Virus record (IMG/VR): IMGVR_UViG_3300013099_000047
Coordinates: 1-36,532 of that record
Direction: 5' to 3' (one strand)
DNA length: 36,532 nucleotides
From: a virus
Shown: piece after piece, positions 1-36,532 of the stretch
Layout of the letters: the number at the start of each line of letters is the position of its first letter
Numbering within the stretch: the first letter of the stretch is position 1
The notes under the pieces: generated by a model
Database searches by the model: none
Told to the model about the DNA's origin: nothing
The model's input: the letters and a program-made list of their open reading frames with translations, nothing else
Made by a program: the position numbers and the translations under genes

Positions 1-123
1 GAGAAACTTATGGAAATATTAAATTTCCCTGAAGTTTCTACGCTCGGAGCATACAAAGGTGGCGTCTTATTGCGAAAGCCAGCAGAGATTATCGTCTCTG
101 ACACCCGCCCTGTTTTTGTCCAA
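1..123. repeat. Direct terminal overlap (left copy)
   Basis: Bases 1-123 are identical to 36410-36532. A perfect repeat that stops exactly at both contig ends is what an assembler leaves when a circular or circularly permuted molecule is closed. The unique length is then 36,409 bp. The repeat lies inside one reading frame that continues across the junction, which supports circularity over a true terminal repeat. Confidence 0.93.
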
Positions 124-477
124 TTGAGCAGGAAGAAAAAATCATCTTTTGCCAGTAACGAGTACGCTGAGCGAGTCTCAGAAAAGCTCTCTGCCGGCCC
201 ATCAGTTCTTATTCAGCCTCGATGGGTTTGCTCTAGAGACCGGACGATTGAAGAAATTCTCTCCGATATCAAGAACGAACCGATTGTGCCACCTGTTGAC
301 CCGGCAGTCGAAAGCACGCCGCCTGTCGAAACTGACATCGACACGCCTACTTCCGGCGTCGAGTGTACTGACGCAGCCAAGAAGCTGGCTGACGAGTCAG
401 ACATCGACATTGCCGCAGTGCCCCATCTAGGCCATCGCGTCACAAGAGCCGATGTACAGGCTGTCCTGAACACATGA
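1..477 (+). CDS. Head protein with C-terminal E3-binding-like domain (3' part)
   Basis: The joined protein (36350 through the junction to 477) is 178 residues. An N-terminal domain of about 90 residues has no recognised fold. A Pro/Thr/Asp-rich linker follows, then a C-terminal segment reading TDAAKKLADESDIDI and HRVTRADVQAVL. That spacing matches the peripheral subunit-binding (E3-binding) fold of 2-oxoacid dehydrogenase E2 chains. In a virion gene it more likely serves as a small docking module than as a metabolic domain. It sits between the major capsid/DUF115 genes and the head-tail genes, and its stop overlaps the next start (ATGA). A role as head or connector protein is inferred from position. 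Confidence 0.7.
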   Translation, partial: EKLMEILNFPEVSTLGAYKGGVLLRKPAEIIVSDTRPVFVQLSRKKKSSFASNEYAERVSEKLSAGPSVLIQPRWVCSRDRTIEEILSDIKNEPIVPPVDPAVESTPPVETDIDTPTSGVECTDAAKKLADESDIDIAAVPHLGHRVTRADVQAVLNT

Positions 478-1316
478 GAATCCTCTGCGTCATATCGAAT
501 GCGACGTGGCGAAACACGTTCGGCCCGGCAGTTTTAGACGGGCTATGCACTTTCTCTGATGCCAGGGTGGTTGCAAAATGTAAGCCCGAAGGACTTCGCG
601 GGAACGATGCGCTTTGTGTCTGGAACGGCGCGAAGGATTTATCAGGCAGGCTTGTTGTGGCCGCCAGAGAACAGGGTATCAAGACGATCGTTGCGGAGCG
701 CGGCTTCTTCAACCGGATGAATTACACTCAGATTGATCTTGAAGGATTCAACCATACCGCGAGTTGGGCGAACGACACCCATACTATCTGGGGCGACGAG
801 AATCGCTTCTTTAAGGCTTTTGGCAGTCGCCCTGCTGAGCAGAAGAGCCGCGAGAACGGTTATATCCTTGTCCTTGGCCAGGTTCCGACTGACGCCCAGT
901 TGAAAGATTCCGAGATTCGCCATGCTGATGTTTTGGTAGAGCTGGTCAAAAATGCTCTGCCTCCGGGCCTGGAAGTCAAGCTCCGTAAACACCCGACCAT
1001 AGCTGAGCCTGGCCGGTCACTCGAAGACGATATCCGAGACGCCCGATTCTGTGTGACGATCAATAGCAACTCTGGCAATGAAGCAATCGCCCGAGGATGC
1101 CCGGTATTGTCGTTTCACCCATCCCTCTACACCATGGCTGGCGTCGCTCACGAAACTACCGTGGCGACGCTGCCGGACGACTTACAGCGGATGCTCGATG
1201 GATATCATCCGACTACCACCGACGCGACTCATTACCTTCATGCCTTGGCAAGCAGGCAATGGAACGATGCTGAGCTGCGCGAGGGATCGGTTTTGAAAAG
1301 GTTATTGGAGAACTGA
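474..1316 (+). CDS. KpsC/KpsS-like capsular polysaccharide-type protein
   Basis: This 280-residue protein resembles the GT-B-like fold of capsule polysaccharide (KpsC/KpsS) and CDP-glycerol-type transferases. Residues 170-174 read LRKHP, and residues 195-211 (TINSNSGNEAIARGCPV) match the acceptor/nucleotide-sugar loop of that group, where a conserved Ser and Glu precede a Gly-x-Pro turn. Such enzymes build or transfer sugars, so in the head operon it could decorate virion proteins or alter host surface glycan. It starts within the previous stop (ATGA) and overlaps the next gene. The family assignment is by motif reading; substrate unknown. Confidence 0.6.
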   Translation: MRILCVISNATWRNTFGPAVLDGLCTFSDARVVAKCKPEGLRGNDALCVWNGAKDLSGRLVVAAREQGIKTIVAERGFFNRMNYTQIDLEGFNHTASWANDTHTIWGDENRFFKAFGSRPAEQKSRENGYILVLGQVPTDAQLKDSEIRHADVLVELVKNALPPGLEVKLRKHPTIAEPGRSLEDDIRDARFCVTINSNSGNEAIARGCPVLSFHPSLYTMAGVAHETTVATLPDDLQRMLDGYHPTTTDATHYLHALASRQWNDAELREGSVLKRLLEN

Positions 1317-24971: not shown

Positions 24972-25496
24972 TTACGTCAGGGGCGTCCTGGTATGCAGGC
25001 CGCCCTCGAATGTTCCGCCCTCGAATGTTCCGCCCTTGAAGAGTCCGTCCACGAATGTTCCGCCATGGAATGTTCCGCCATGGAAGAATCCGCCATGGAA
25101 GAATCCGCCCGTGAAGGTTCCGCCCTCGAATATTCCGCCCGTGAATATTCCGCCCTCGAATAGTCCGTCCTTGAAGGTTCCATCCATGAAGAGTCCGCCC
25201 TCGAAGAGTCCGCCCCAGAAGAGTCCGCCCTTGAATAGTCCGTCCACGAATGTTCCGCCATGGAATGTTCCGCCATGGAAGGTTCCGCCCTCGAAGAGTC
25301 CGTCCACGAATGTTCCGCCCCAGAATGTTCCGCCCGTGAAGGTTCCGCCATATACCAGGGCGTTAGGGCCGATATATACGCCTCTGTCAATAAAAGCATC
25401 CTTATATACCCATCCGCCTCCGTTTTTGTGATGATGCCAACCATTAGATGACTTTGGCAGGTCTGGGTGCAGCTGCCTAATTTCTTTCCAGTTCAT
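24972..25496 (-). CDS. GGTFx-repeat beta-helix protein A
   Basis: The 174-residue protein starts at MNWKEIRQLHPDL behind AAAGGA. A capping region (WHHHKNGGGWVYKD, then YIGPNALVYGG) resembles the first turns of a left-handed hexapeptide helix. About 24 five-residue repeats follow, GGTFTGGTFWGGTFV and variants with DGLFE. A Phe every fifth residue flanked by small residues suits a pentapeptide-repeat quadrilateral helix with Phe at the inward position. It ends GGLHTRTPLT. A paralogue is encoded at 25944-26378. Target unknown; some pentapeptide proteins mimic DNA or bind gyrase. Confidence 0.65.
   Translation of the reverse strand: MNWKEIRQLHPDLPKSSNGWHHHKNGGGWVYKDAFIDRGVYIGPNALVYGGTFTGGTFWGGTFVDGLFEGGTFHGGTFHGGTFVDGLFKGGLFWGGLFEGGLFMDGTFKDGLFEGGIFTGGIFEGGTFTGGFFHGGFFHGGTFHGGTFVDGLFKGGTFEGGTFEGGLHTRTPLT
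25005..25351. repeat. 15-bp-period tandem repeat in beta-helix gene A
   Basis: Variants of a 15-base unit (such as GTTCCGCCCTCGAAT on the plus strand) run through this stretch, coding for five residues each on the leftward strand. Neighbouring units often differ at one or two bases, consistent with growth by slippage or unequal exchange. Ends are approximate. Confidence 0.8.
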
Positions 25497-25515
25497 AATC
25501 TCAATCCTTTCATTC

Positions 25516-25527
25516 GCCATTATTGGC
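25516..25527 (-). promoter_or_regulatory. Leader palindrome GCCAATAATGGC before beta-helix gene A
   Basis: The leader on the leftward strand reads TTTGCCAATAATGGCGAAT, then GAAAGGATTGAGATT to the ATG. It is nearly identical to the leader of beta-helix gene B. Confidence 0.6.
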
Positions 25528-25549
25528 AAAGCCATTTTACTTACCATCA

Positions 25550-25729
25550 TCAGTCCTGGGGCAAACAACGCCCAAGAATAGCCTGCGATGCTCTCTCAGC
25601 GTCCTCAAGTGTCCAAATGAACGCTCTGCCCATCTTCTTCGGCGGCGAGAAGTCGCCTTCGTAAATCCGACGTTGCAACTTCGCGGGTGTAATGCCCAAC
25701 ATATTCGCAATTTGTTTTGTGCTAAACAC
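25550..25729 (-). CDS. Excisionase/MerR-type HTH protein (59 aa)
   Basis: A GTG start behind GGAG (5-base spacing) gives MFSTKQIANMLGITPAKLQR, then IYEGDFSPPKKMGR and a short helix. This is the winged-helix layout of excisionase or DNA-binding-domain proteins of the MerR/AlpA type, where the K-Q-I-A-x-x-L-G helix reads DNA and the wing contains Pro and Arg. The frame is short and does not start with ATG. It may regulate the leftward operon; no integrase is present for an excision role. Confidence 0.65.
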   Translation of the reverse strand: MFSTKQIANMLGITPAKLQRRIYEGDFSPPKKMGRAFIWTLEDAERASQAILGRCLPQD

Positions 25730-25943: not shown

Positions 25944-26378
25944 CTAGTAAATCCAGGCGCTGCGTACTGTACGGTGTAGCGAACCGGTTATCACGAGCGG
26001 CGTCCTGGTATGCAAGCCGCCCTCGAATGTTCCGCCCACGAAGGTTCCGCCCTCGAATATTCCGCCCATGAAGGTTCCGCCCATGAAGAATCCGTCCATG
26101 AATGTTCCGCCCTCGAAGAGTCCGTCCACGAAGGTTCCGCCCATGAAGAGTCCGCCCGTGAAGGTTCCGCCATCGAAGAATCCGCCCCAGAATGTTCCGC
26201 CCTCGAATATTCCGCCCCAGAATGTTCCGCCATATACCAGAGCGTTAGGGCCGATATATATATCGCTGTCAATAAAAGCATCCTTATGTACCCATCCGCC
26301 TCCGTTTTTGTGATGATGCCAACCATTAGATGACTTTGGCAGGTCTGGGTGCAGCTGCCTAATTTCTTTCCATGTCAT
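25944..26378 (-). CDS. GGTFx-repeat beta-helix protein B
   Basis: The 144-residue paralogue of the protein at 24972 shares the start (MTWKEIRQLHPDLPKSSNGW), the capping region with YIGPNALVYGG, the repeats (GGTFWGGIFEGGTFWGGFF) and the phrase GGLHTRTPL after them. It has about 15 repeats, fewer than protein A, and its C-terminal 16 residues diverge (ending RSAWIY). The shared leader was duplicated with the gene. Confidence 0.65.
   Translation of the reverse strand: MTWKEIRQLHPDLPKSSNGWHHHKNGGGWVHKDAFIDSDIYIGPNALVYGGTFWGGIFEGGTFWGGFFDGGTFTGGLFMGGTFVDGLFEGGTFMDGFFMGGTFMGGIFEGGTFVGGTFEGGLHTRTPLVITGSLHRTVRSAWIY
26021..26236. repeat. 15-bp-period tandem repeat in beta-helix gene B
   Basis: Same 15-base unit family as at 25005-25351, with fewer units. 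Together the two tracts and their shared 5' parts form an imperfect direct duplication about 0.9 kb apart. Ends are approximate. Confidence 0.75.
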
Positions 26379-26397
26379 AATCTCAATCCTTTCATTC

Positions 26398-26409
26398 GCC
26401 ACTATTGGC
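26398..26409 (-). promoter_or_regulatory. Leader palindrome GCCAATAGTGGC before beta-helix gene B
   Basis: The leftward-strand leader carries GCCAATAGTGGC, one base different from the other leaders and identical to the copy at 15835-15846. AAAGGATTGAGATT follows up to the ATG. Confidence 0.6.
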
Positions 26410-26439
26410 AAAGCCTGGCGGGGACAGGCAGGGTGTGAC

Positions 26440-26937
26440 TTAGTTTTCACAGTTGATGTAAGATTGCACGGTTACGCTGGCCACCTTTTCTGCTGCCTGC
26501 GCCATGGCGTGGTCGATCTCGCTGGCTATCTTTGCCTGGAGGATTTTAAGCCAATCATCGCTAGCAGTCATCCATGCGTATGTGTCAAACTCGTCGGTGT
26601 CTCGCTCGTCACCTTGTGTTGTGTCGTCCAGTGGTTCGATCGTCTCTGGGACTTCGATCGAAACAACCCTGCCCGGCCCGCCATTCCAGTATTCAAATCG
26701 ACAGTTGAAATCAACTACAACTTCTAGCGTTTCACACTCTAGCGACTCAGCGAACTCTCCGCCTGCCGTGCTGATCGGTTCGCAGTCATCCTTGTCGAGG
26801 CCTGCGATGATTTGGCAAGCAATCTCGGCGTCAATATCGTTTTCGATAGCTGCCTGGTCGATAGCTGGCGCAAGATATTGTTCTCTCAGGATTTCGTTGT
26901 TGCTACAAATGTGAATTGTCATTTTTAGTAGTCTCAT
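26440..26937 (-). CDS. Hypothetical acidic protein of the leftward operon
   Basis: Starting at MRLLKMTIHI, 7 bases after AAGGA, the protein has 165 residues. The middle contains a beta-rich stretch (LEVVVDFNCRFEYWNGGPGR) followed by an acidic loop, and the C-terminus is helical with AMAQAAEKVASVTVQ. I do not recognise the family. The longer upstream frame is rejected because it crosses the shared leader. Confidence 0.5.
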   Translation of the reverse strand: MRLLKMTIHICSNNEILREQYLAPAIDQAAIENDIDAEIACQIIAGLDKDDCEPISTAGGEFAESLECETLEVVVDFNCRFEYWNGGPGRVVSIEVPETIEPLDDTTQGDERDTDEFDTYAWMTASDDWLKILQAKIASEIDHAMAQAAEKVASVTVQSYINCEN

Positions 26938-27789: not shown

Positions 27790-28050
27790 ATGCTTACTGA
27801 GATGTTAAACAATCGGCAAATCGATATTCTCAATCTCTATTATTTTGAAAACTACACGCAAGAAATGATTGCCGAACTGTTCAAAATATCGCAATCAGCC
27901 GTATCCCAGACGATCTCAACAGCAAAACGCAAGGTCAAGGCCAAAGCAGGCTATGACTTTGTGCACAGAGCACACGCACAAACCGCAATAAGCAGGGGAG
28001 TGCTGAAGGAATATTATAATTGTGCCAACCCAGGCAGTAAGCATGACTGA
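27790..28050 (+). CDS. Sigma-70 region-4-like late regulator
   Basis: The 86-residue protein has an HTH like sigma70 region 4: NNRQIDILNLYYFENYTQEM, then AELFKISQSAVSQTISTAKR. Region-4-only phage proteins of this size act as transcription factors for late genes. It stands first in the packaging/late operon. The ribosome site is poor; ATG at 27802 is an alternative start. It overlaps the terminase small subunit start. Confidence 0.6.
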   Translation: MLTEMLNNRQIDILNLYYFENYTQEMIAELFKISQSAVSQTISTAKRKVKAKAGYDFVHRAHAQTAISRGVLKEYYNCANPGSKHD

Positions 28051-28600
28051 TGATCCCACAAACGAGGGCTCTCCTGAGTGGAAGAAGCTTACGATAAAGC
28101 AACGCATGTTCGTCCAAACATACTTCGATAATGGGTTCAATGCTACAAGGGCAGCTATCACAGCAGGTTACAGCAAAAAAACAGCCAAGGATATCGCCTG
28201 TGAAAACTTAGCTAAACCCAATATCAAAGCTGCGATTGCCGCTGAGATGAACACGCGAGGTTTATCGCCAGACAGGCTGATGAGGGAAATCGCCCGTATT
28301 GCCTTCGCTGATGATACTCTCGCCATGGAAGAGTGGCTGACTGGCCACCGGACGATGGCAGAATTAGTAAACAGTGGTGACCTTTCTGGTGGTGTCGTTC
28401 AATCGATGAGCCTGACCGATAAGGGTCGAAAGATCACGATGTACTCGAAGCTGGCTGCACTTGAGCAGCTTGTGAAGATACAAGGCTTGATAATCGACCG
28501 CACAGATATCAATGCCAGAGTTGAAAACGTGGCCCCTGTCTACCACCCAACAAACGAGCAGCTGGAAATCGACGCAGCGAAAAGGAATGGGCCTAAGTGA
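28043..28600 (+). CDS. terS: Terminase small subunit
   Basis: Starting at MTDDPTNEGS, the 185-residue protein has the Terminase_2-type N-terminal HTH: LTIKQRMFVQTYFDNGFNAT, then AAITAGYSKKTAKDIACENL, matching the usual L-t-x-K-Q-x-x-F-v...N-a-T-x-A-A-i-x-A-G-Y-s pattern that recognises packaging-site DNA. The C-terminal half is the oligomerisation region. A GTG 21 bases earlier is another possible start. Its stop lies against the radical SAM gene, not the large subunit, which is unusual. Confidence 0.85.
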   Translation: MTDDPTNEGSPEWKKLTIKQRMFVQTYFDNGFNATRAAITAGYSKKTAKDIACENLAKPNIKAAIAAEMNTRGLSPDRLMREIARIAFADDTLAMEEWLTGHRTMAELVNSGDLSGGVVQSMSLTDKGRKITMYSKLAALEQLVKIQGLIIDRTDINARVENVAPVYHPTNEQLEIDAAKRNGPK

Positions 28601-29448
28601 TGCGAGCAGGAATCGAGATCACCTCCCGCTGCAATCTGGCCTGTCCGTTTTGCGGTTACGCTACGATGGAGCGGGCCAAAATCGACATGCCCCGCAGCCT
28701 GTGGCAACCGATATTCGAGGACATCCGCGATAACGGTCATGAGCTGCGGTCGATGGCGCTCTACGGTGAGCCGCTCCTAAGCGAGCAATACATTCCTGCC
28801 CTGCGATACTTGGCTGAGAACGTGATGTACGTCACGAACGCTTTCTACACGAACGCGACATTATTGACGCCCAAAAAGACTGACGAACTTATCGAATCAG
28901 GTTTCTTCAACGTCCACCGGCGAACCCGCAAAGTATGGCTGGGCCTTGATACTTTCGATCATGAAGTGTATCGCAGGCTGAGGGGCGGGAACTGGATTGA
29001 GACGGCAGAGAATATCGAATATTTCCTTGATGCAGGTGGGCGTGACTTGCCTGGAGTTGCTGTCCAACTTATGCGCACCTGCCTCAACGAGGACGAATCG
29101 CCTGAGCCGATGCAAGACTATTTCAATTGCGATATAGCTGTCCGTGAGGTGGGCAGGCAGTTCAACAAGGCCAATGACATGACCGTCAAGGCGTTCGAGG
29201 GCGATTGCAGGCCTGATTGTCGGGAATTATGGGGAACCATCTGGATATCGTCTGATGGACGGGCAACGGCCTGCTGCATCGATGGCGAGTTTGAGATGTC
29301 GTTCGGCGGTTTCCCAGGACAATCGCTGCAAGATCTGGCCGGCTGCGCAACCCTGAAAGACCAGAGAGAAAACTTCGGAAAACAAAACTACGACGAACTA
29401 ACCCTGTGCCAAAGGTGCCACGGAGATGAGCCGAGAGGCAGGAGATGA
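28600..29448 (+). CDS. Radical SAM/SPASM enzyme inside the packaging module
   Basis: The 282-residue protein begins GIEITSRCNLACPFC, the CxxxCxxC signature (Cys 11, 15, 18) that holds the SAM-cleaving 4Fe-4S cluster. YGEPLL at 55-60 is the GGEPLL-like SAM contact. The C-terminal third (Cys 203, 207, 225, 226, 270, 273; DGRATACCID and LCQRCHG) looks like a SPASM auxiliary cluster domain, as in peptide-maturing enzymes. All signature residues are intact. Placement between small and large terminase genes is odd. Substrate unknown; a virion peptide or host molecule are options. Confidence 0.8.
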   Translation: MRAGIEITSRCNLACPFCGYATMERAKIDMPRSLWQPIFEDIRDNGHELRSMALYGEPLLSEQYIPALRYLAENVMYVTNAFYTNATLLTPKKTDELIESGFFNVHRRTRKVWLGLDTFDHEVYRRLRGGNWIETAENIEYFLDAGGRDLPGVAVQLMRTCLNEDESPEPMQDYFNCDIAVREVGRQFNKANDMTVKAFEGDCRPDCRELWGTIWISSDGRATACCIDGEFEMSFGGFPGQSLQDLAGCATLKDQRENFGKQNYDELTLCQRCHGDEPRGRR

Positions 29449-29451
29449 ATG

Positions 29452-29559
29452 ATGGCCGAAAACACAAAGAAGACCGAGACCAAAGAAGCACCCAAACCCA
29501 AAGAAGAGCAGGCCAGCTACCAGGCAGGCAACCTCAGCAAGATCAAGGAGCCGAAGTAG
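29452..29559 (+). CDS. 35-aa charged peptide coupled to the radical SAM gene
   Basis: AGGAG lies 7 bases before the ATG, inside the end of the radical SAM gene. The product is MAENTKKTETKEAPKPKEEQ plus 15 residues ending in SKIKEPK, with no Cys. Its position and size resemble a RiPP precursor, but the Lys/Glu/Pro composition gives no obvious core. It shares MAENT with the scaffold protein start, which may be coincidence. Confidence 0.5.
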   Translation: MAENTKKTETKEAPKPKEEQASYQAGNLSKIKEPK

Positions 29560-29562
29560 CGT

Positions 29563-31020
29563 GTGGACAGACCAACGACAAGACCGGCATTATGGATGTT
29601 CATCGCTGGATACCTTGGTATCGAGTTGCCGTTTACGGCCTTCTCGCCGGGTTTTAGCACACCATTCGATTTCGTAGCCGATGCGTTTTTCAATCCGCAA
29701 AAGGACATTGCGGCCTGGGCGAACCGCTCGGGCATAAAGACACTTGGCGCGTCAATCCTTGCGGCGCTCGAGTACCGATTCGCTGACAACCTGCAATCGC
29801 GGGTATTGAGCGGCTCGGAAGATCAGGCCAAGAATATGTATTCTTATTGGGCAAAGTTCTGCGACAGCTTCCTGGCCGACAGACTTGATGACAAGTCGGT
29901 AAAGCAGATGCTTACCAAGATCGGCGGCGGCAAGATGGAAATCCTATCGGCCTCGCAACGAAGGGTGAGAGGCCCGAAGGTTCACCGTCTTTATGAAGAT
30001 GAACTCGACGAGATTGACACCGAACTCGACGAAGCCGCGGCTGGCATGATTGCATCAAGCGACGAGCACCCAGGCAGGACGATCTACACTTCGACATGGC
30101 ACAAGGTCAACGGGGCCATGCAAAGGCTTATCGAGGCCTCGCCAGGCAACGGCGTGACGGTTCACCGGTGGGCTTTATGGGAGTCGATCCAGAACTGCGA
30201 CGAGGACAGGCACGGTTACGGGACGGGCTGCAAGACTTGCGGTCTTGCTCCGACGTGCCTTGATAAAGCCCGGCAGATCGACCCCAGAGCGAAGATCGGT
30301 ATCGCATCGAAGGCACGCGGCCTCTACCGCCTCGACGACGCTATCAAGGCCTATCGCAAGCTCGGCAAAGCAAGCTGGGGGGCTGAGTACCTGTGTCTAA
30401 GACCAAGCGTCAAAGGTGCTGTATACCCCGCGTTCGACGGAACCGTTCATTGCACGACAAAGCCGCCGGCGGCACTTAAGATATACCGGGCGATTGATTG
30501 GGGTCTTAATGTATTCGTCTGCCTCTGGGTGGGCGAAGACAAAAACGGCACGGCTTATGTGCTTGACACTTACCGCAGCGAGATCGGTACGATTCCGCAG
30601 CACATCAAGCACATCAAAGAACATAAATACCAGAATATCGCAGCGACTTACGTTGACCCGGCAGGACGCAACCGCAACGACCAGACCGGCAAGAGCAATA
30701 TAGACGTCTTCCGTGAGGCTGGCATCGAATGCCGCTTCACAATGACCAAGAGGCTGCGAAATGTCCAGAACGGCATCCGCCTGGTAGCAGACAGGCTTGA
30801 ACCCAACCAGGGCCCGCCGCGTCTCATGGTGGTACAGTCAGCGAACAATGCCGCTTTCATCAAGGCAATGCAAAGTTATTGTAACCGCAAAGTCAACGGG
30901 ATATTCATACCGGAGCCGCAAGATCCCCAAGAGTTTGAGCATATCCCAGACGCACTCAGATACTTCATAGTCAACCGCGAGACAACCAACGTGGTGGTCA
31001 AAGCATACGGAGCCAATTGA
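29563..31020 (+). CDS. terL: Terminase large subunit
   Basis: The 485-residue protein has a Walker A-like ANRSGIKT (53-60), a Walker B-like VHRLYEDELDE (140-150) and a RuvC-like nuclease with Asp312 (RAIDWGLN) and Asp365 (TYVDPAGRN). A Cys cluster (212, 223, 226, 232) lies between the two domains. It cuts and pumps DNA into the procapsid with the portal. The start is GTG, overlapping no upstream gene; it follows the 35-aa peptide by 3 bases. Confidence 0.9.
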   Translation: MDRPTTRPALWMFIAGYLGIELPFTAFSPGFSTPFDFVADAFFNPQKDIAAWANRSGIKTLGASILAALEYRFADNLQSRVLSGSEDQAKNMYSYWAKFCDSFLADRLDDKSVKQMLTKIGGGKMEILSASQRRVRGPKVHRLYEDELDEIDTELDEAAAGMIASSDEHPGRTIYTSTWHKVNGAMQRLIEASPGNGVTVHRWALWESIQNCDEDRHGYGTGCKTCGLAPTCLDKARQIDPRAKIGIASKARGLYRLDDAIKAYRKLGKASWGAEYLCLRPSVKGAVYPAFDGTVHCTTKPPAALKIYRAIDWGLNVFVCLWVGEDKNGTAYVLDTYRSEIGTIPQHIKHIKEHKYQNIAATYVDPAGRNRNDQTGKSNIDVFREAGIECRFTMTKRLRNVQNGIRLVADRLEPNQGPPRLMVVQSANNAAFIKAMQSYCNRKVNGIFIPEPQDPQEFEHIPDALRYFIVNRETTNVVVKAYGAN

Positions 31021-31021
31021 G

Positions 31022-32521
31022 ATGGCTGAGCCTACGACATTCGACCCGACAAGCAAATCCGCTCTTTACGACAAATATGCGCCCGGGTGGCAGCTTGCCA
31101 TCGACTTCTTTGAAATGGCAGAGCATGTGCTCCGCGATGGCACATACCTTGATCGATTCGGCGAAGGGTCCGACAAGGCGGAATCGGCTTCTCAATTTGA
31201 GTGGCGAAAGATAGCGTCATTCGCTATGGACATCTGCTCCGAATTGGTCGGTATTCGAGTCGGCAACATTTTCAGGACTAACCCTGTCAGGTCGTTTGAA
31301 AACTCGCCGTATGCCACCCAAATTAAAGGCTTCCTTTCCGATGTTGACGGGGGCGGAACGTCAATGAACACCTTTATGAAGCGGACTTTGGTTAAGTACT
31401 ACGTCAACGGCGTAGATATCGTCGTGGACAAAACAGGCCTGCTTTTCGAGCCTCAGAACCTCAAAGAAGAAGAAGAGGCAGGGGCCAGGCCTTATTTGAT
31501 GGCTCTCGGCCCTCTGCAGCGGCTTGATTGGGCGTGCGACTATTCAGGAAAATATAAATGGGTCCGGTACGATCTCGGGGAGAAGCCCCGAGAAGCCGAA
31601 GAGTCGGAGGCAGGTAGTCATCAATATTTGACGCTGTCAGAATCGTCTTGGACGCTGTACACATCAAGCGTTGACAATGAAGAAACCAGCGTCGTAGAGG
31701 TCCATGGTCCCATCGCTGGCGGAAATGTTCCTGTCATCCCGTTCTACTGGAGCGAGTCCATCAAGGCTGATGCCGTCAAGGTTCCGATTCCACTGCTTGA
31801 CCGACCTGCTCCAATCGCAAGAGCGATGTTGAATCTTGTGAGCCAGGGGCAGCTTGATATACTCATGTCGATCGGCATGATAGCAGTGTTCGGTGTCAAA
31901 GCCGACCAACTGCCAACCGAGGTCGGCCCGATGTGCTTTTTGGGCTTCGACGAAGGCTCGACACTCCAGCATGTCACCCCGGATGTGTCGCATATCGAAG
32001 AGAAGCGTAATTGGCTTGGCATGATGGGGACTCAAATTCTTCGCTTGGGCAAACTGACTGGTGTTACAGGCGAACTCATGGGACGGGCGTCGTCAGGCTT
32101 GCAGGTTGCGATTGAGCGAACCGACCTCGACAATGAAATGGCTGCGACTGCTGGCCAGGCTGAGCAGGTCGAAGAGGATATTATGAGACTGATGGTATCC
32201 CGGTCTGTTGGCAAAGAAGTGACAGCAGAAGAGCTTGGTTACAGCGTCGAATACAACAAAAAGTATATCTTGGTCGGCGTGAACAGCCTGCTTGAAGAGG
32301 CGAAGTTGTTTACCGAACTTGGGGTCAATAAGAAAGTGCCTGAGTTGATGCGAGTGATGCTTGACCGCTTCAAATCGGCAGTCATCAGGCCAAGCGACGA
32401 GAAGAACAAGCTGATCGACAAGGAAATCGCGGCTGCGGATTTCGAGGGTGAGTTCGACGTGCCTGGCTTGGGCGAAATAGCCGACGGCCAGCCCGATGAC
32501 CTGAGTGTTGAAGATGCCTGA
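31022..32521 (+). CDS. Portal protein
   Basis: The 499-residue protein follows the large terminase by one base. Its helical N-terminus, beta-rich wing with repeated aromatic strands, and long C-terminal helix (about 340-400, EQVEEDIMRLMVSRSVGKEV) match SPP1 gp6/HK97-type portals. The dodecameric ring is the DNA entry port and the nucleus for capsid assembly. The C-terminus is acidic and disordered. Confidence 0.75.
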   Translation: MAEPTTFDPTSKSALYDKYAPGWQLAIDFFEMAEHVLRDGTYLDRFGEGSDKAESASQFEWRKIASFAMDICSELVGIRVGNIFRTNPVRSFENSPYATQIKGFLSDVDGGGTSMNTFMKRTLVKYYVNGVDIVVDKTGLLFEPQNLKEEEEAGARPYLMALGPLQRLDWACDYSGKYKWVRYDLGEKPREAEESEAGSHQYLTLSESSWTLYTSSVDNEETSVVEVHGPIAGGNVPVIPFYWSESIKADAVKVPIPLLDRPAPIARAMLNLVSQGQLDILMSIGMIAVFGVKADQLPTEVGPMCFLGFDEGSTLQHVTPDVSHIEEKRNWLGMMGTQILRLGKLTGVTGELMGRASSGLQVAIERTDLDNEMAATAGQAEQVEEDIMRLMVSRSVGKEVTAEELGYSVEYNKKYILVGVNSLLEEAKLFTELGVNKKVPELMRVMLDRFKSAVIRPSDEKNKLIDKEIAAADFEGEFDVPGLGEIADGQPDDLSVEDA

Positions 32522-33404
32522 TAACATCCGCCAATCAGTAGCGACTGCCAGGCCCGTAGTTGATGGCATTGTCTGGCGTGACGACATGCACAGCATTATA
32601 TCCCGGTACGCAAAAACGCTGCTTTATACGAGCACGAAATCTACTGCCAGGCTTCGCAAGGAAGTCCTGACGTACTACACGAATGAGGTTATTAGGCAGG
32701 CCAATCTAACCGGGCTAAAGACAGCAGAGCCAATCCTTAAGGCCCTCGGATCACCCATAGAGGCAGTCAGAGGCAAAGCCCTTCGGCGACTGGCCACGTG
32801 GACGGCGAACAATGTCAAGGCGTTTCGGCAAGAGTTGAATCTTGCCAAGGTGGTGCTTGACGGTGAAACACAAGCCGCTTTCTTCCGGGCCACACGCGAT
32901 GATGTAGGCCGCAAGACGCTTGTAGACTCGCTGACTAAAGCCAACCGCGACGACATGGCTGCGATACGCAAAGCCAACAATCGAATCAGATCGGCCCGGA
33001 CGAAACTTGCCAAGGCTGAGAAAGTCGGCAACTCCGCGACGGTCAAGGCTGCAAGGCTGGAGATGACCAAGGCGCGGGCGGCACGCGCTACAAAATCAAT
33101 GCTTGGCCGATTCGAGGAGCAAATTCAAGCGGCCACCCGTGATTCTGTCAGGAGGCAGATAGCACGGTCAAGGAAAGCCGCTTTTGAGCAAGCTTACGGC
33201 GTCGGCGTCAAGCGGACATGGGTTGCCGTCAATGGTTCAGGTGCCTGCCCGCAATGTGACGAACGGCACGGGCTGATATGCCCGTCAGAGACAGGCGGAG
33301 AACCAGGCAGCGGGCAGACTTATTGCCAATCATCCTGCATGTGCCAGGCCGTACCTGAAAAGTATCTTGTGGGCAATCCGATCCCGGAGCCCATCGTTGC
33401 ATAA
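32514..33404 (+). CDS. MuF-like head morphogenesis protein
   Basis: From the ATG at 32514 the protein has 296 residues and overlaps the portal stop by 8 bases; a TTG upstream is possible but less likely. Residues 60-230 are helical and basic. The C-terminus (RTWVAVNGSGACPQCDERHG, then CQSSCMCQ) is the SPP1 gp7/Mu gpF minor head region with its Cys pairs. Such proteins are packaged at the portal vertex. Confidence 0.7.
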   Translation: MPDNIRQSVATARPVVDGIVWRDDMHSIISRYAKTLLYTSTKSTARLRKEVLTYYTNEVIRQANLTGLKTAEPILKALGSPIEAVRGKALRRLATWTANNVKAFRQELNLAKVVLDGETQAAFFRATRDDVGRKTLVDSLTKANRDDMAAIRKANNRIRSARTKLAKAEKVGNSATVKAARLEMTKARAARATKSMLGRFEEQIQAATRDSVRRQIARSRKAAFEQAYGVGVKRTWVAVNGSGACPQCDERHGLICPSETGGEPGSGQTYCQSSCMCQAVPEKYLVGNPIPEPIVA

Positions 33405-33438: not shown

Positions 33439-33459
33439 CAAAGGACGAATCATGGCAGA
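33439..33459. repeat. 21-bp leader repeat (copy 1)
   Basis: Contains the ribosome site and ATG plus the first codons of the gene at 33452; identical to 33813-33833. Confidence 0.85.
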
Positions 33460-33802
33460 TTTTAAAAAAGAACTTGACTGGGCAATTAAATCCCTTGGCC
33501 TGTCGGACTGGGAATTTGAGCTCGAATATCAAAACAGAGGCAAAAGACCGCCATGGACTGGCGAAATAGAGGACGATGTCGATGGATGCTGTAAGCCTGT
33601 GGCGAGGTACAAAACCGCTTACATGTGGATTGACCCGGAAGGCGATAATCCCATCAAAGTATTATTCTACGAAATGATTCGAGTGGTGATGACTGATATC
33701 GGTGTTGATCAAAACGAACACAATTGCCACCAGGAGTTTTCTTGGAATATGATGTCGCAGATTATGGTAATTGCATATTCAGCAGACGTAGCCACACAAT
33801 AG
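33452..33802 (+). CDS. Metallopeptidase-fold-like phage protein with degenerate active site
   Basis: The 116-residue protein runs from SDWEFELEYQNRG through RYKTAYMWIDPEGDN to KVLFYEMIRVVMTDIGVDQN. This order (W-x-f-e-l-x strand, an r-x-A-x-I-x-i-d-P strand, then the spot for HExxH) matches small phage metallopeptidase-like proteins, but the motif reads YEMIR, so both His are missing. It is probably inactive and structural, or a remnant. Shares a 21-base leader with the scaffold gene. Confidence 0.45.
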   Translation: MADFKKELDWAIKSLGLSDWEFELEYQNRGKRPPWTGEIEDDVDGCCKPVARYKTAYMWIDPEGDNPIKVLFYEMIRVVMTDIGVDQNEHNCHQEFSWNMMSQIMVIAYSADVATQ

Positions 33803-33812
33803 GGCAGAAGCC

Positions 33813-33833
33813 CAAAGGACGAATCATGGCAGA
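33813..33833. repeat. 21-bp leader repeat (copy 2)
   Basis: Identical to 33439-33459 and placed the same way at the scaffold gene, AAAGGA and ATGGCAGA included. Two neighbouring genes thus share one initiation cassette. Confidence 0.85.
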
Positions 33834-34610: not shown

Positions 34611-35648
34611 ATGTCAGACGCACTATCAGCACGCAGTGACGCAACGATACCAGAAATCCTCGACAGCATTCGTTACCTCGGGGTAGCCGAGAAACTCGAC
34701 ATCTTCAACGCTGCAACCGGAGGGGCCATTGTTCTTGAGTCGCGCCCTGCCCAGCTTGCCGCTTCTGGAGGCGAGTTTACCAAAATGAACCGGTTTAAAG
34801 AGATTTCAAGCCTTGTCAATCATATGGATGAGGCGAATCCGACCGGAGCAATCGATACGCTCAAACAAGAGCAAGCGGCTGGCTCGACGGTATACCAAGC
34901 CCAAAGGATTGGCCCCGTAGCACTCAATAGTGACTACGCAATTACAGGCCAGGCAACCCCAGACCAGTGTGTCGCTAACCTGGCGACTCAGTTTGCTGAA
35001 CAGCAGCTCGTGACGATCAGAGACAACCTGCTTGCTGCTGGAGTTGCGGCAATTGCGGCGATGGATACGCCCAGTGCGGATTACCACATCCTTGACGTTG
35101 CCAGGGGCAAGGTTACTGGCGCGGCTGTGACAGCAACATTCTCCTACCTGAATACGCTTAGGGCAAAGATGGGCGATCGGTTGAGCGACATAAAGACCTG
35201 GGTCATGCCGTCTGCTGTGTACAAGGACTTGATCGGTGACTCTCTTGCCAACTACAAGGTTGACCAAATCGCTGGTACTCATTTGTATCGGGAGATCGAT
35301 GCGTTATTCGGTGGCAACCTGGTTGTGGTTGACAGTCCAAGCCTGACCGAGGCGCTTACCAGTTCGTATCCCACTGAATACTTCGTACTAGGCCTTGGCA
35401 AGAACGCATTGCGGGCAACCATCCTGCACGATTCGCCTGTGAAACAGGCTGTCACACTCGACACCGAAGTTGATAGCGAGATGTATCGTTCTAACTTCTA
35501 CGTCGAGTACGCAATTGCTGGAATGAAGTATGATCAGAATCCAGCGAACCCGACCAATGCCGAGTTGGCGACCACTGCCAACTGGGACGAAGACCTTGAC
35601 GATCATCGCCAGTGCCCAATCGTCATGGGTGTGTTCAACGCTGCATAA
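34611..35648 (+). CDS. Major capsid protein (HK97-fold)
   Basis: The 345-residue protein follows the scaffold after TTAGGAG. It has an N-terminal arm of about 40 residues, a P-domain-like helix (about 112-140, ANLATQFAEQQLVTIRDNLL), a conserved TWVMPSAVYKDLI strand-helix and a C-terminal A-domain strand pair (MYRSNFYVEYAIAGMKY). The length and order fit HK97-type coat proteins of the E/P22 subgroup. Abundant Ala/Thr/Asp composition suits a shell protein. Confidence 0.8.
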   Translation: MSDALSARSDATIPEILDSIRYLGVAEKLDIFNAATGGAIVLESRPAQLAASGGEFTKMNRFKEISSLVNHMDEANPTGAIDTLKQEQAAGSTVYQAQRIGPVALNSDYAITGQATPDQCVANLATQFAEQQLVTIRDNLLAAGVAAIAAMDTPSADYHILDVARGKVTGAAVTATFSYLNTLRAKMGDRLSDIKTWVMPSAVYKDLIGDSLANYKVDQIAGTHLYREIDALFGGNLVVVDSPSLTEALTSSYPTEYFVLGLGKNALRATILHDSPVKQAVTLDTEVDSEMYRSNFYVEYAIAGMKYDQNPANPTNAELATTANWDEDLDDHRQCPIVMGVFNAA

Positions 35649-35708
35649 GAATCCTTTCTGCCCTCGGGGTGAGTGGGCTTGTCTTGCTTGCCCCGGTGGT
35701 TTAATAGA

Positions 35709-36362
35709 ATGAAACTAAATAACGCGATCTTGATTGTTGGTAATGGCCCGTCTGTTGATCAGATGCCTAGGAAATTCTGGCAAGATTGGCAAGGGCGAAT
35801 CATCGGCACGAATCGTAGCCTGGTTGTCAAGGCATTACAGGGTGTTGATGTCGAGGCGGTTGTCATCCGCGATCGGTCAACGCAGTTGTGGGTAGACCAG
35901 TCGCTAGGCTCGAAGTACAAGACGCTGTGGAAGTCGTCTGATGCCCACAGGGTCATCACGGAATCAGCCAGGAATCTTCCGTTCGACGAGATGTTGACGT
36001 TTGTCGCCGGTTGGCAGGTTTCGCCGCCAGACACATCGAGAAGCAAGCCTGTAACAAAGGTGATGAAATCCGGAAGTGTAGTACTTGCAGCCGCCAACTG
36101 GGCATGGTGTTGCGGTGTCCGAGAGATTTACCTTATCGGCGTGGACTACCACGGTGGTCATGCAAAGATGATTCCTCCATTCGACGCCGATACTCGTGGC
36201 TCAGGCGGTTGTTTGCCAGAGCATAAGCATGTAATTGAAAAAGAATTCAGCGAGGCCGTTGCTGCGGTTGAGTATCGCTGTGGTTCGCTGGTAAACTTAT
36301 CGCAGAACAGCCAATTGAGGGCAGTTCCGCACAGCAGAAAGGATGCATCATGGATATTGTAG
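35709..36362 (+). CDS. DUF115/MptE-like protein, possible glycan-linked
   Basis: The 217-residue protein begins MKLNNAILIVGNGPSVDQM. GNGPS is the family signature of DUF115 (6-hydroxymethylpterin diphosphokinase MptE-like), and later SGSVVLAAANWAWCCGVREI with YLIGVDYHGG fits its C-terminal fold. Bacterial members include flagellin glycosylation (Maf-type) proteins, and phage copies often lie near capsid genes. With the KpsC/S-like gene downstream it may form a virion-glycosylation pair. The ribosome site is weak. Confidence 0.65.
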   Translation: MKLNNAILIVGNGPSVDQMPRKFWQDWQGRIIGTNRSLVVKALQGVDVEAVVIRDRSTQLWVDQSLGSKYKTLWKSSDAHRVITESARNLPFDEMLTFVAGWQVSPPDTSRSKPVTKVMKSGSVVLAAANWAWCCGVREIYLIGVDYHGGHAKMIPPFDADTRGSGGCLPEHKHVIEKEFSEAVAAVEYRCGSLVNLSQNSQLRAVPHSRKDASWIL

Positions 36363-36532
36363 CACTAGCACCGACAAGTAATTCTCAGTTCAGGCGAGAG
36401 AAAAAATGGGAGAAACTTATGGAAATATTAAATTTCCCTGAAGTTTCTACGCTCGGAGCATACAAAGGTGGCGTCTTATTGCGAAAGCCAGCAGAGATTA
36501 TCGTCTCTGACACCCGCCCTGTTTTTGTCCAA
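36350..36532 (+). CDS. Head protein with C-terminal E3-binding-like domain (5' part)
   Basis: This is the 5' end of the gene whose remainder lies at 1-477. The ATG at 36350 follows a good AAAGGA site at 6-base spacing and overlaps the end of the preceding DUF115-like gene. The first 20 codons (MDIVALAPTSNSQFRREKKW) are read before the circular junction, and the frame then runs unbroken into base 1. The joined protein is 178 residues. A start at base 10 would drop these residues and is less likely. Confidence 0.85.
   Translation, partial: MDIVALAPTSNSQFRREKKWEKLMEILNFPEVSTLGAYKGGVLLRKPAEIIVSDTRPVFVQ
36410..36532. repeat. Direct terminal overlap (right copy)
   Basis: Second copy of the 123-bp sequence at bases 1-123, with no mismatch. 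It lies inside the 5' part of the gene that begins at 36350 and continues at base 1. Confidence 0.93.

Follow-up and report, generated by a model that had tools for sequence, protein, structure and literature searches.

Radical SAM enzymes of the SPASM type carry a seven-cysteine motif, CX9-15GX4C-gap-CX2CX5CX3C-gap-C, that serves two auxiliary clusters (PMC6231123), and those of the twitch type have one auxiliary cluster (PMC9012708). BtrN, a twitch enzyme of butirosin biosynthesis (PDB 4M7S/4M7T), oxidises an aminocyclitol (PMC9012708). The RiPP maturases SkfB, CteB and SuiB join a radical SAM core and a twitch or SPASM domain to an N-terminal RRE, and have a dedicated precursor peptide (PMC6231123). 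Within the SPASM/twitch subfamily, similarity networks predict fold or function poorly (PMC6231123). Among phages, pelagimyophages are already known to carry radical SAM cassettes in a region rich in glycosyltransferases (PMC7029224), and from work cited in PMC11256854 it is known that major capsid proteins can bear glycans. Our literature searches turned up no account of a radical SAM gene lying between two terminase genes.

Such a gene (28600..29448, + strand) is present in the IMG/VR virus contig analyzed here, a stretch of 36,532 bases that we call the window. Like the pelagimyophage cassettes, it is an accessory radical SAM gene in a phage with a variable glycosyltransferase-rich region; those phages, however, are large myophages and the region concerned is one of host recognition, whereas the window is a 36-kb phage and the gene lies in its head module. 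Phage-encoded glycosyltransferases are also shared with the cluster F mycobacteriophages Che8 and Rita, whose capsid protein bears glycans according to the work cited in PMC11256854, but their glycosyltransferases are different, and no mention of a radical SAM enzyme was found there. The core and the type of C-terminal domain are common to SkfB, CteB and SuiB; the RRE and the precursor peptide of these maturases are both absent in the window.

The radical SAM gene and its surroundings

The record carries a direct repeat of exactly 123 bases at its two ends (1..123 and 36410-36532), with the reading frame passing through it, so that the record is a complete genome and can be read as circular, with a length of about 36.4 kb. 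The small terminase subunit gene (TerS; 28043..28600, +; Terminase_2 PF03592, 4e-27; phrog_51, 3e-31) precedes the radical SAM gene, and the stop of the former and the start of the latter share one base (TGATG). Downstream lie a 35-codon ORF (29452..29559, +), the large subunit gene (TerL; 29563..31020, +; Terminase_6C PF17289, 2.6e-6, and PHROG terL families) and the portal gene (31022-32521). The following gene (32505-33404), which had no profile match, is presumably MuF-like, as judged by its position. It is separated by a small ORF (33452-33802) from the scaffold gene (start at 33826), which lies upstream of the gene for a Gp13-like major capsid protein (34611..35648, +; PF20036, 5.8e-46). 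The third-position GC content of the radical SAM gene (0.642, against 0.658 for TerL) is that of the late genes. Elsewhere in the window, two related genes of tandem FxGGTF/GGLF repeats, pentapeptide- or MORN-like (24972-25568 and 25944-26450, both on the - strand), have near-identical N-termini and appear to have arisen by duplication.

The radical SAM ORF is intact and codes for 282 amino acids. A Pfam search matched it to Radical_SAM (PF04055, E 1.2e-14; 55.3 bits against a cut-off of 29.5) and, over residues 207-274, to SPASM (PF13186, E 8.1e-6, above the curated cut-off). A first-pass annotation, made from the sequence alone, had described a SPASM-type, probably active enzyme from its CxxxCxxC cluster, a GGEPLL-like motif and a cysteine-rich C-terminus, and had proposed the HMM search against SPASM. 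The cluster motif, which places the protein in the radical SAM superfamily, is C11/C15/C18, and the enzyme, whose frame and core are intact, is probably active, as predicted from sequence. The second motif is present too, with the exact reading YGEPLL (residues 55-60). The C-terminus is indeed related to SPASM, but it does not have the full cysteine set. Over seven aligned homologs the invariant cysteines are solely C11, C15, C18, C207, C225, C270 and C273; C226 is common to the enzyme and its phage ortholog (see below), but not to all homologs. The four C-terminal cysteines are thus spaced CX17CX44CX2C, and the auxiliary cysteines of BtrN, read from the profile alignment at chain positions 169, 187, 232 and 235, have the same spacing. 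Four conserved cysteines, instead of the seven of the two-cluster motif, provide for a single auxiliary cluster, as in a shortened SPASM domain. By the published definitions, the C-terminus is a twitch domain, with one predicted auxiliary Fe-S cluster, rather than a full SPASM domain.

BtrN was also the best PDB match of the single sequence (phmmer, E 8e-5) and of the seven-homolog profile (E 9e-32), which aligned to it in two separate segments, the radical core and the C-terminal domain. The two proteins are of similar length, have the core near the N-terminus, lack a recognition domain and share the YGEPLL motif; the phmmer similarity is nevertheless limited, and the present gene belongs to a phage head module. 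NCBIfam gave only general partial matches, the best of them, to a tungsten-cofactor maturase, being far below its cut-off, and PHROGs returned broad radical SAM families only. An AlphaFold model built from two sequences was poor (pLDDT 48), a fold search with it was non-significant, and it was set aside.

The first-pass annotation had also suggested that the enzyme and a 35-residue peptide encoded at its 3' end form a peptide-modification pair. The reading frame itself is confirmed, with an AGGAG followed by an ATG at 29452 (36 amino acids if the ATG at 29449 is used) and a stop at 29559, but its expression is uncertain: it may be a true small gene, or it may only fill space, its end providing the ribosome-binding site of TerL. 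Adjacency and a good ribosome-binding site speak for a RiPP-like pair. Against it, the Lys/Glu-rich peptide has no cysteine, no tryptophan and a single tyrosine, and tblastn found no homolog of it in the related phages. Furthermore, RiPP maturases carry an RRE at the N-terminus or are accompanied by a PqqD-like protein. Only 10 residues precede the first cluster cysteine, residue 11, too few to accommodate an RRE, and no PF05402 match to a PqqD-like protein was found anywhere in the genome. A conserved precursor is lacking as well, since in the related phage a glycosyltransferase gene overlaps the 3' end of the ortholog and follows it directly. That the enzyme modifies this peptide is therefore very improbable. 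The MAENT start said to be shared by peptide and scaffold does occur in the scaffold, but we judged it a coincidence of low complexity, both tails being low-complexity T/E/K sequence.

The TerS-TerL gap in related phages

A search with TerL yielded 24 related contigs (42-62% identity), some of them near-duplicates and most of them fragments; near-identical records may be hidden in all counts of relatives given here. The region upstream of TerL is visible in about a dozen distinct relatives, and none of these has a radical SAM gene in the gap. Instead, L019 and L021 have a calcineurin-like phosphoesterase with small ORFs, L008 and L011 a DUF5681 or similar gene and, behind it, one for a small zincin-like HExxH protein, and L013 several unassigned ORFs; in some other relatives the gap holds nothing. 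The product of window ORF 33452-33802 is a relative of the zincin-like protein found in L011, and since the gene lies in the gap in one phage and among the head genes in the other, genes of the module move between slots. In this family (window 33452-33802; L008:1903-2286; L011:4029-4397) the relatives have HEMMH and HEMVH, and the HExxH motif has apparently been lost in the window protein (FYEMI). A radical SAM protein of a different type is encoded upstream of TerL in another relative (L041:8224-8997); BLAST did not match it to the window enzyme, and it was rejected as a relative.

The placement between the terminase genes thus stands for the window, but the TerS-rSAM-TerL order is not kept in the relatives, and the premise of the first-pass annotation that terminase genes are usually adjacent fails in this group. 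Judging by gene content, these phages use the gap as a slot for changing cargo, and the position of the radical SAM gene is uninformative on packaging. A role of the enzyme in DNA packaging with the terminase, to which only the location and the overlap with TerS point, is the least probable of the explanations considered: relatives with a TerL of this similarity lack the gene in the gap, and its ortholog lies elsewhere.

The ortholog and the glycosyltransferase block behind the capsid gene

The sole ortholog found (L040:6500-7339; 48% identity over 279 amino acids) is in a related phage contig, IMGVR_UViG_3300025669_000493, here L040, whose TerL and capsid protein are 50% and 37% identical to those of the window. 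Because this contig starts within TerL, it does not reach the gap between its terminase genes. Identities at codon positions 1, 2 and 3 (0.54, 0.68 and 0.33) indicate purifying selection on a gene, rather than a chance ORF. Scans of IMG/VR and GTDB genomes revealed no close relatives of the window enzyme. A two-sequence profile recovered the L040 contig alone in IMG/VR, plus one weak Gammaproteobacterial match over 102 residues, and searches with the L040 protein and with a NAFYTNA DNA pattern added no relatives. In GenBank phages tblastn found no match to the window enzyme and one insignificant match to that of L040. A scan with the seven-member alignment was dropped because the sequences were too diverse.

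In L040 the ortholog lies after the capsid gene, between an MptE/GT42-like gene and a capsule-synthesis-like, GT-B-like glycosyltransferase gene, whose start its stop overlaps by ATGA, so that the two are coupled in translation. A small ORF (L040:6230-6514) lies between the MptE-like gene and the ortholog; its C-terminus, we presume, resembles the end of a sulfotransferase. The window carries orthologs of both flanking genes behind its own capsid gene, with no radical SAM gene between them. The MptE-like gene (35706..36362, +; PF01973, 1.7e-6, below cut-off), of which orthologs were found in the relatives, is followed by a short ORF that spans the circular junction and by the glycosyltransferase gene (474..1316, +; PF05159, 1.2e-5, above cut-off; 38-46% identity to the orthologs of relatives), after which come the neck and tail genes. 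A model of the MptE-like protein (pLDDT 59 overall, higher in the core) matched the GT42 sialyltransferases Cst-II (6e-4) and Cst-I (7e-4) with probability 1.0, and a Maf glycosyltransferase at lower rank; PDB sequence searches with both glycosyltransferase-like families gave nothing significant.

Of the contigs that cover this region, about nine distinct ones share the arrangement capsid, GT42/MptE-like gene, insert, glycosyltransferase, with the MptE-like gene missing or undetected in L067 and L068. The insert is the radical SAM gene in L040, a Rhamno_transf protein with an enlarged glycosyltransferase in L056 and L057, and little or nothing in L054, L055, L060-L063 and L066. L053 has the MptE-like protein in fusion with Glycos_transf_1 and Glycos_transf_2 domains. 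The block, with the ortholog inside it, is most simply explained as a phage glycosylation module, and one that likely serves the virion. Its members (window 35706-36362 and 474-1316; L040, L053-L057 and L060-L066) arguably outrank the position of the radical SAM gene in interest.

Outside phages, ten plasmid-borne cellular homologs were examined, a plasmid sample and not a survey. Most of them adjoin glycosyltransferases, amino-sugar aminotransferases, LPS heptose genes or glycosidases, and one, from Thermovirga, adjoins a tungsten oxidoreductase. Radical SAM/SPASM proteins of O-antigen or polysaccharide loci (Lawsonia, Deltaproteobacterium Smac51, Methylobacterium, Roseibium) have the same domain order as the phage enzyme, glycan neighbors and, in those aligned, the four C-terminal cysteines, at about 22-29% identity. 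The phage pair differs from them in extra residues after position 102 and in having NAFYTNA instead of a shorter motif.

Possible roles of the enzyme

We consider it about an even chance that the enzyme is an accessory, carbohydrate-directed one that works with the glycosyltransferases of the phage on a virion or host-surface glycan. The context of the ortholog, the recurrence of the block, BtrN as the closest solved relative of both the single sequence and the family, and the sugar genes around most cellular homologs all argue for it. We infer the chemistry, the substrate and the target (virion versus host-surface glycan) from this context. A 5'-deoxyadenosyl radical would take a hydrogen from a sugar, be it free, nucleotide-bound or in a glycan; then either the auxiliary cluster would accept the second electron, making the reaction an oxidation like that of BtrN, or the substrate would regain a hydrogen atom, which gives epimerization; and the phage glycosyltransferases would place or extend the altered sugar on a virion protein or the host surface. 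Several observations weigh against a carbohydrate role. In the window the gene is not adjacent to the glycosyltransferases and no sugar-nucleotide biosynthesis gene was found beside it, the single ortholog found provides just one independent placement, the peptide enzyme SkfB and MoaA have twitch domains too, and the Thermovirga homolog keeps other company. Likewise, the model of the enzyme is poor, and the model behind the GT42 match is of moderate confidence.

The enzyme might instead directly modify the side chain of an amino acid in a virion protein or another phage protein (crosslink, epimerization or formylglycine-like oxidation), with no sugar involved. The gene lies in the head module in both phages, and SPASM/twitch enzymes include the protein or peptide modifiers SkfB and anSME (PMC6231123). 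We hold this to be rather unlikely, because BtrN is not a peptide enzyme, the N-terminus has no recognition domain, the auxiliary cysteines number four only and the ortholog has a glycosyltransferase context. The suggestion of the first-pass annotation that a virion protein may be the target survives in altered form, since this context points first to a glycan. Nor does a host-directed role, in which the enzyme alters the host surface polysaccharide (superinfection exclusion) or metabolism and has no bearing on virions, seem probable to us. Cellular homologs in LPS and polysaccharide loci and the accessory slot of the gene are in line with it, and such a role has been proposed for phage glycosyltransferases (PMC7029224), but the block keeps its place among the head genes, behind that of the capsid, and the enzyme gene has the composition of late genes. 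Within the carbohydrate-directed reading, the fixed place of the block slightly favors a virion protein as the target. More specifically, and only tentatively, the enzyme could form a virion-glycan pathway together with the sialyltransferase-like protein and the glycosyltransferase of capsule type, by which the phage makes an unusual sugar through radical chemistry and puts it on its own capsid.

Whatever the radical SAM enzyme does, the block is a concrete, testable predictor of virion glycosylation in about nine uncultured phages. If the enzyme does tailor a virion glycan, radical chemistry would join the few known routes of phage capsid decoration.
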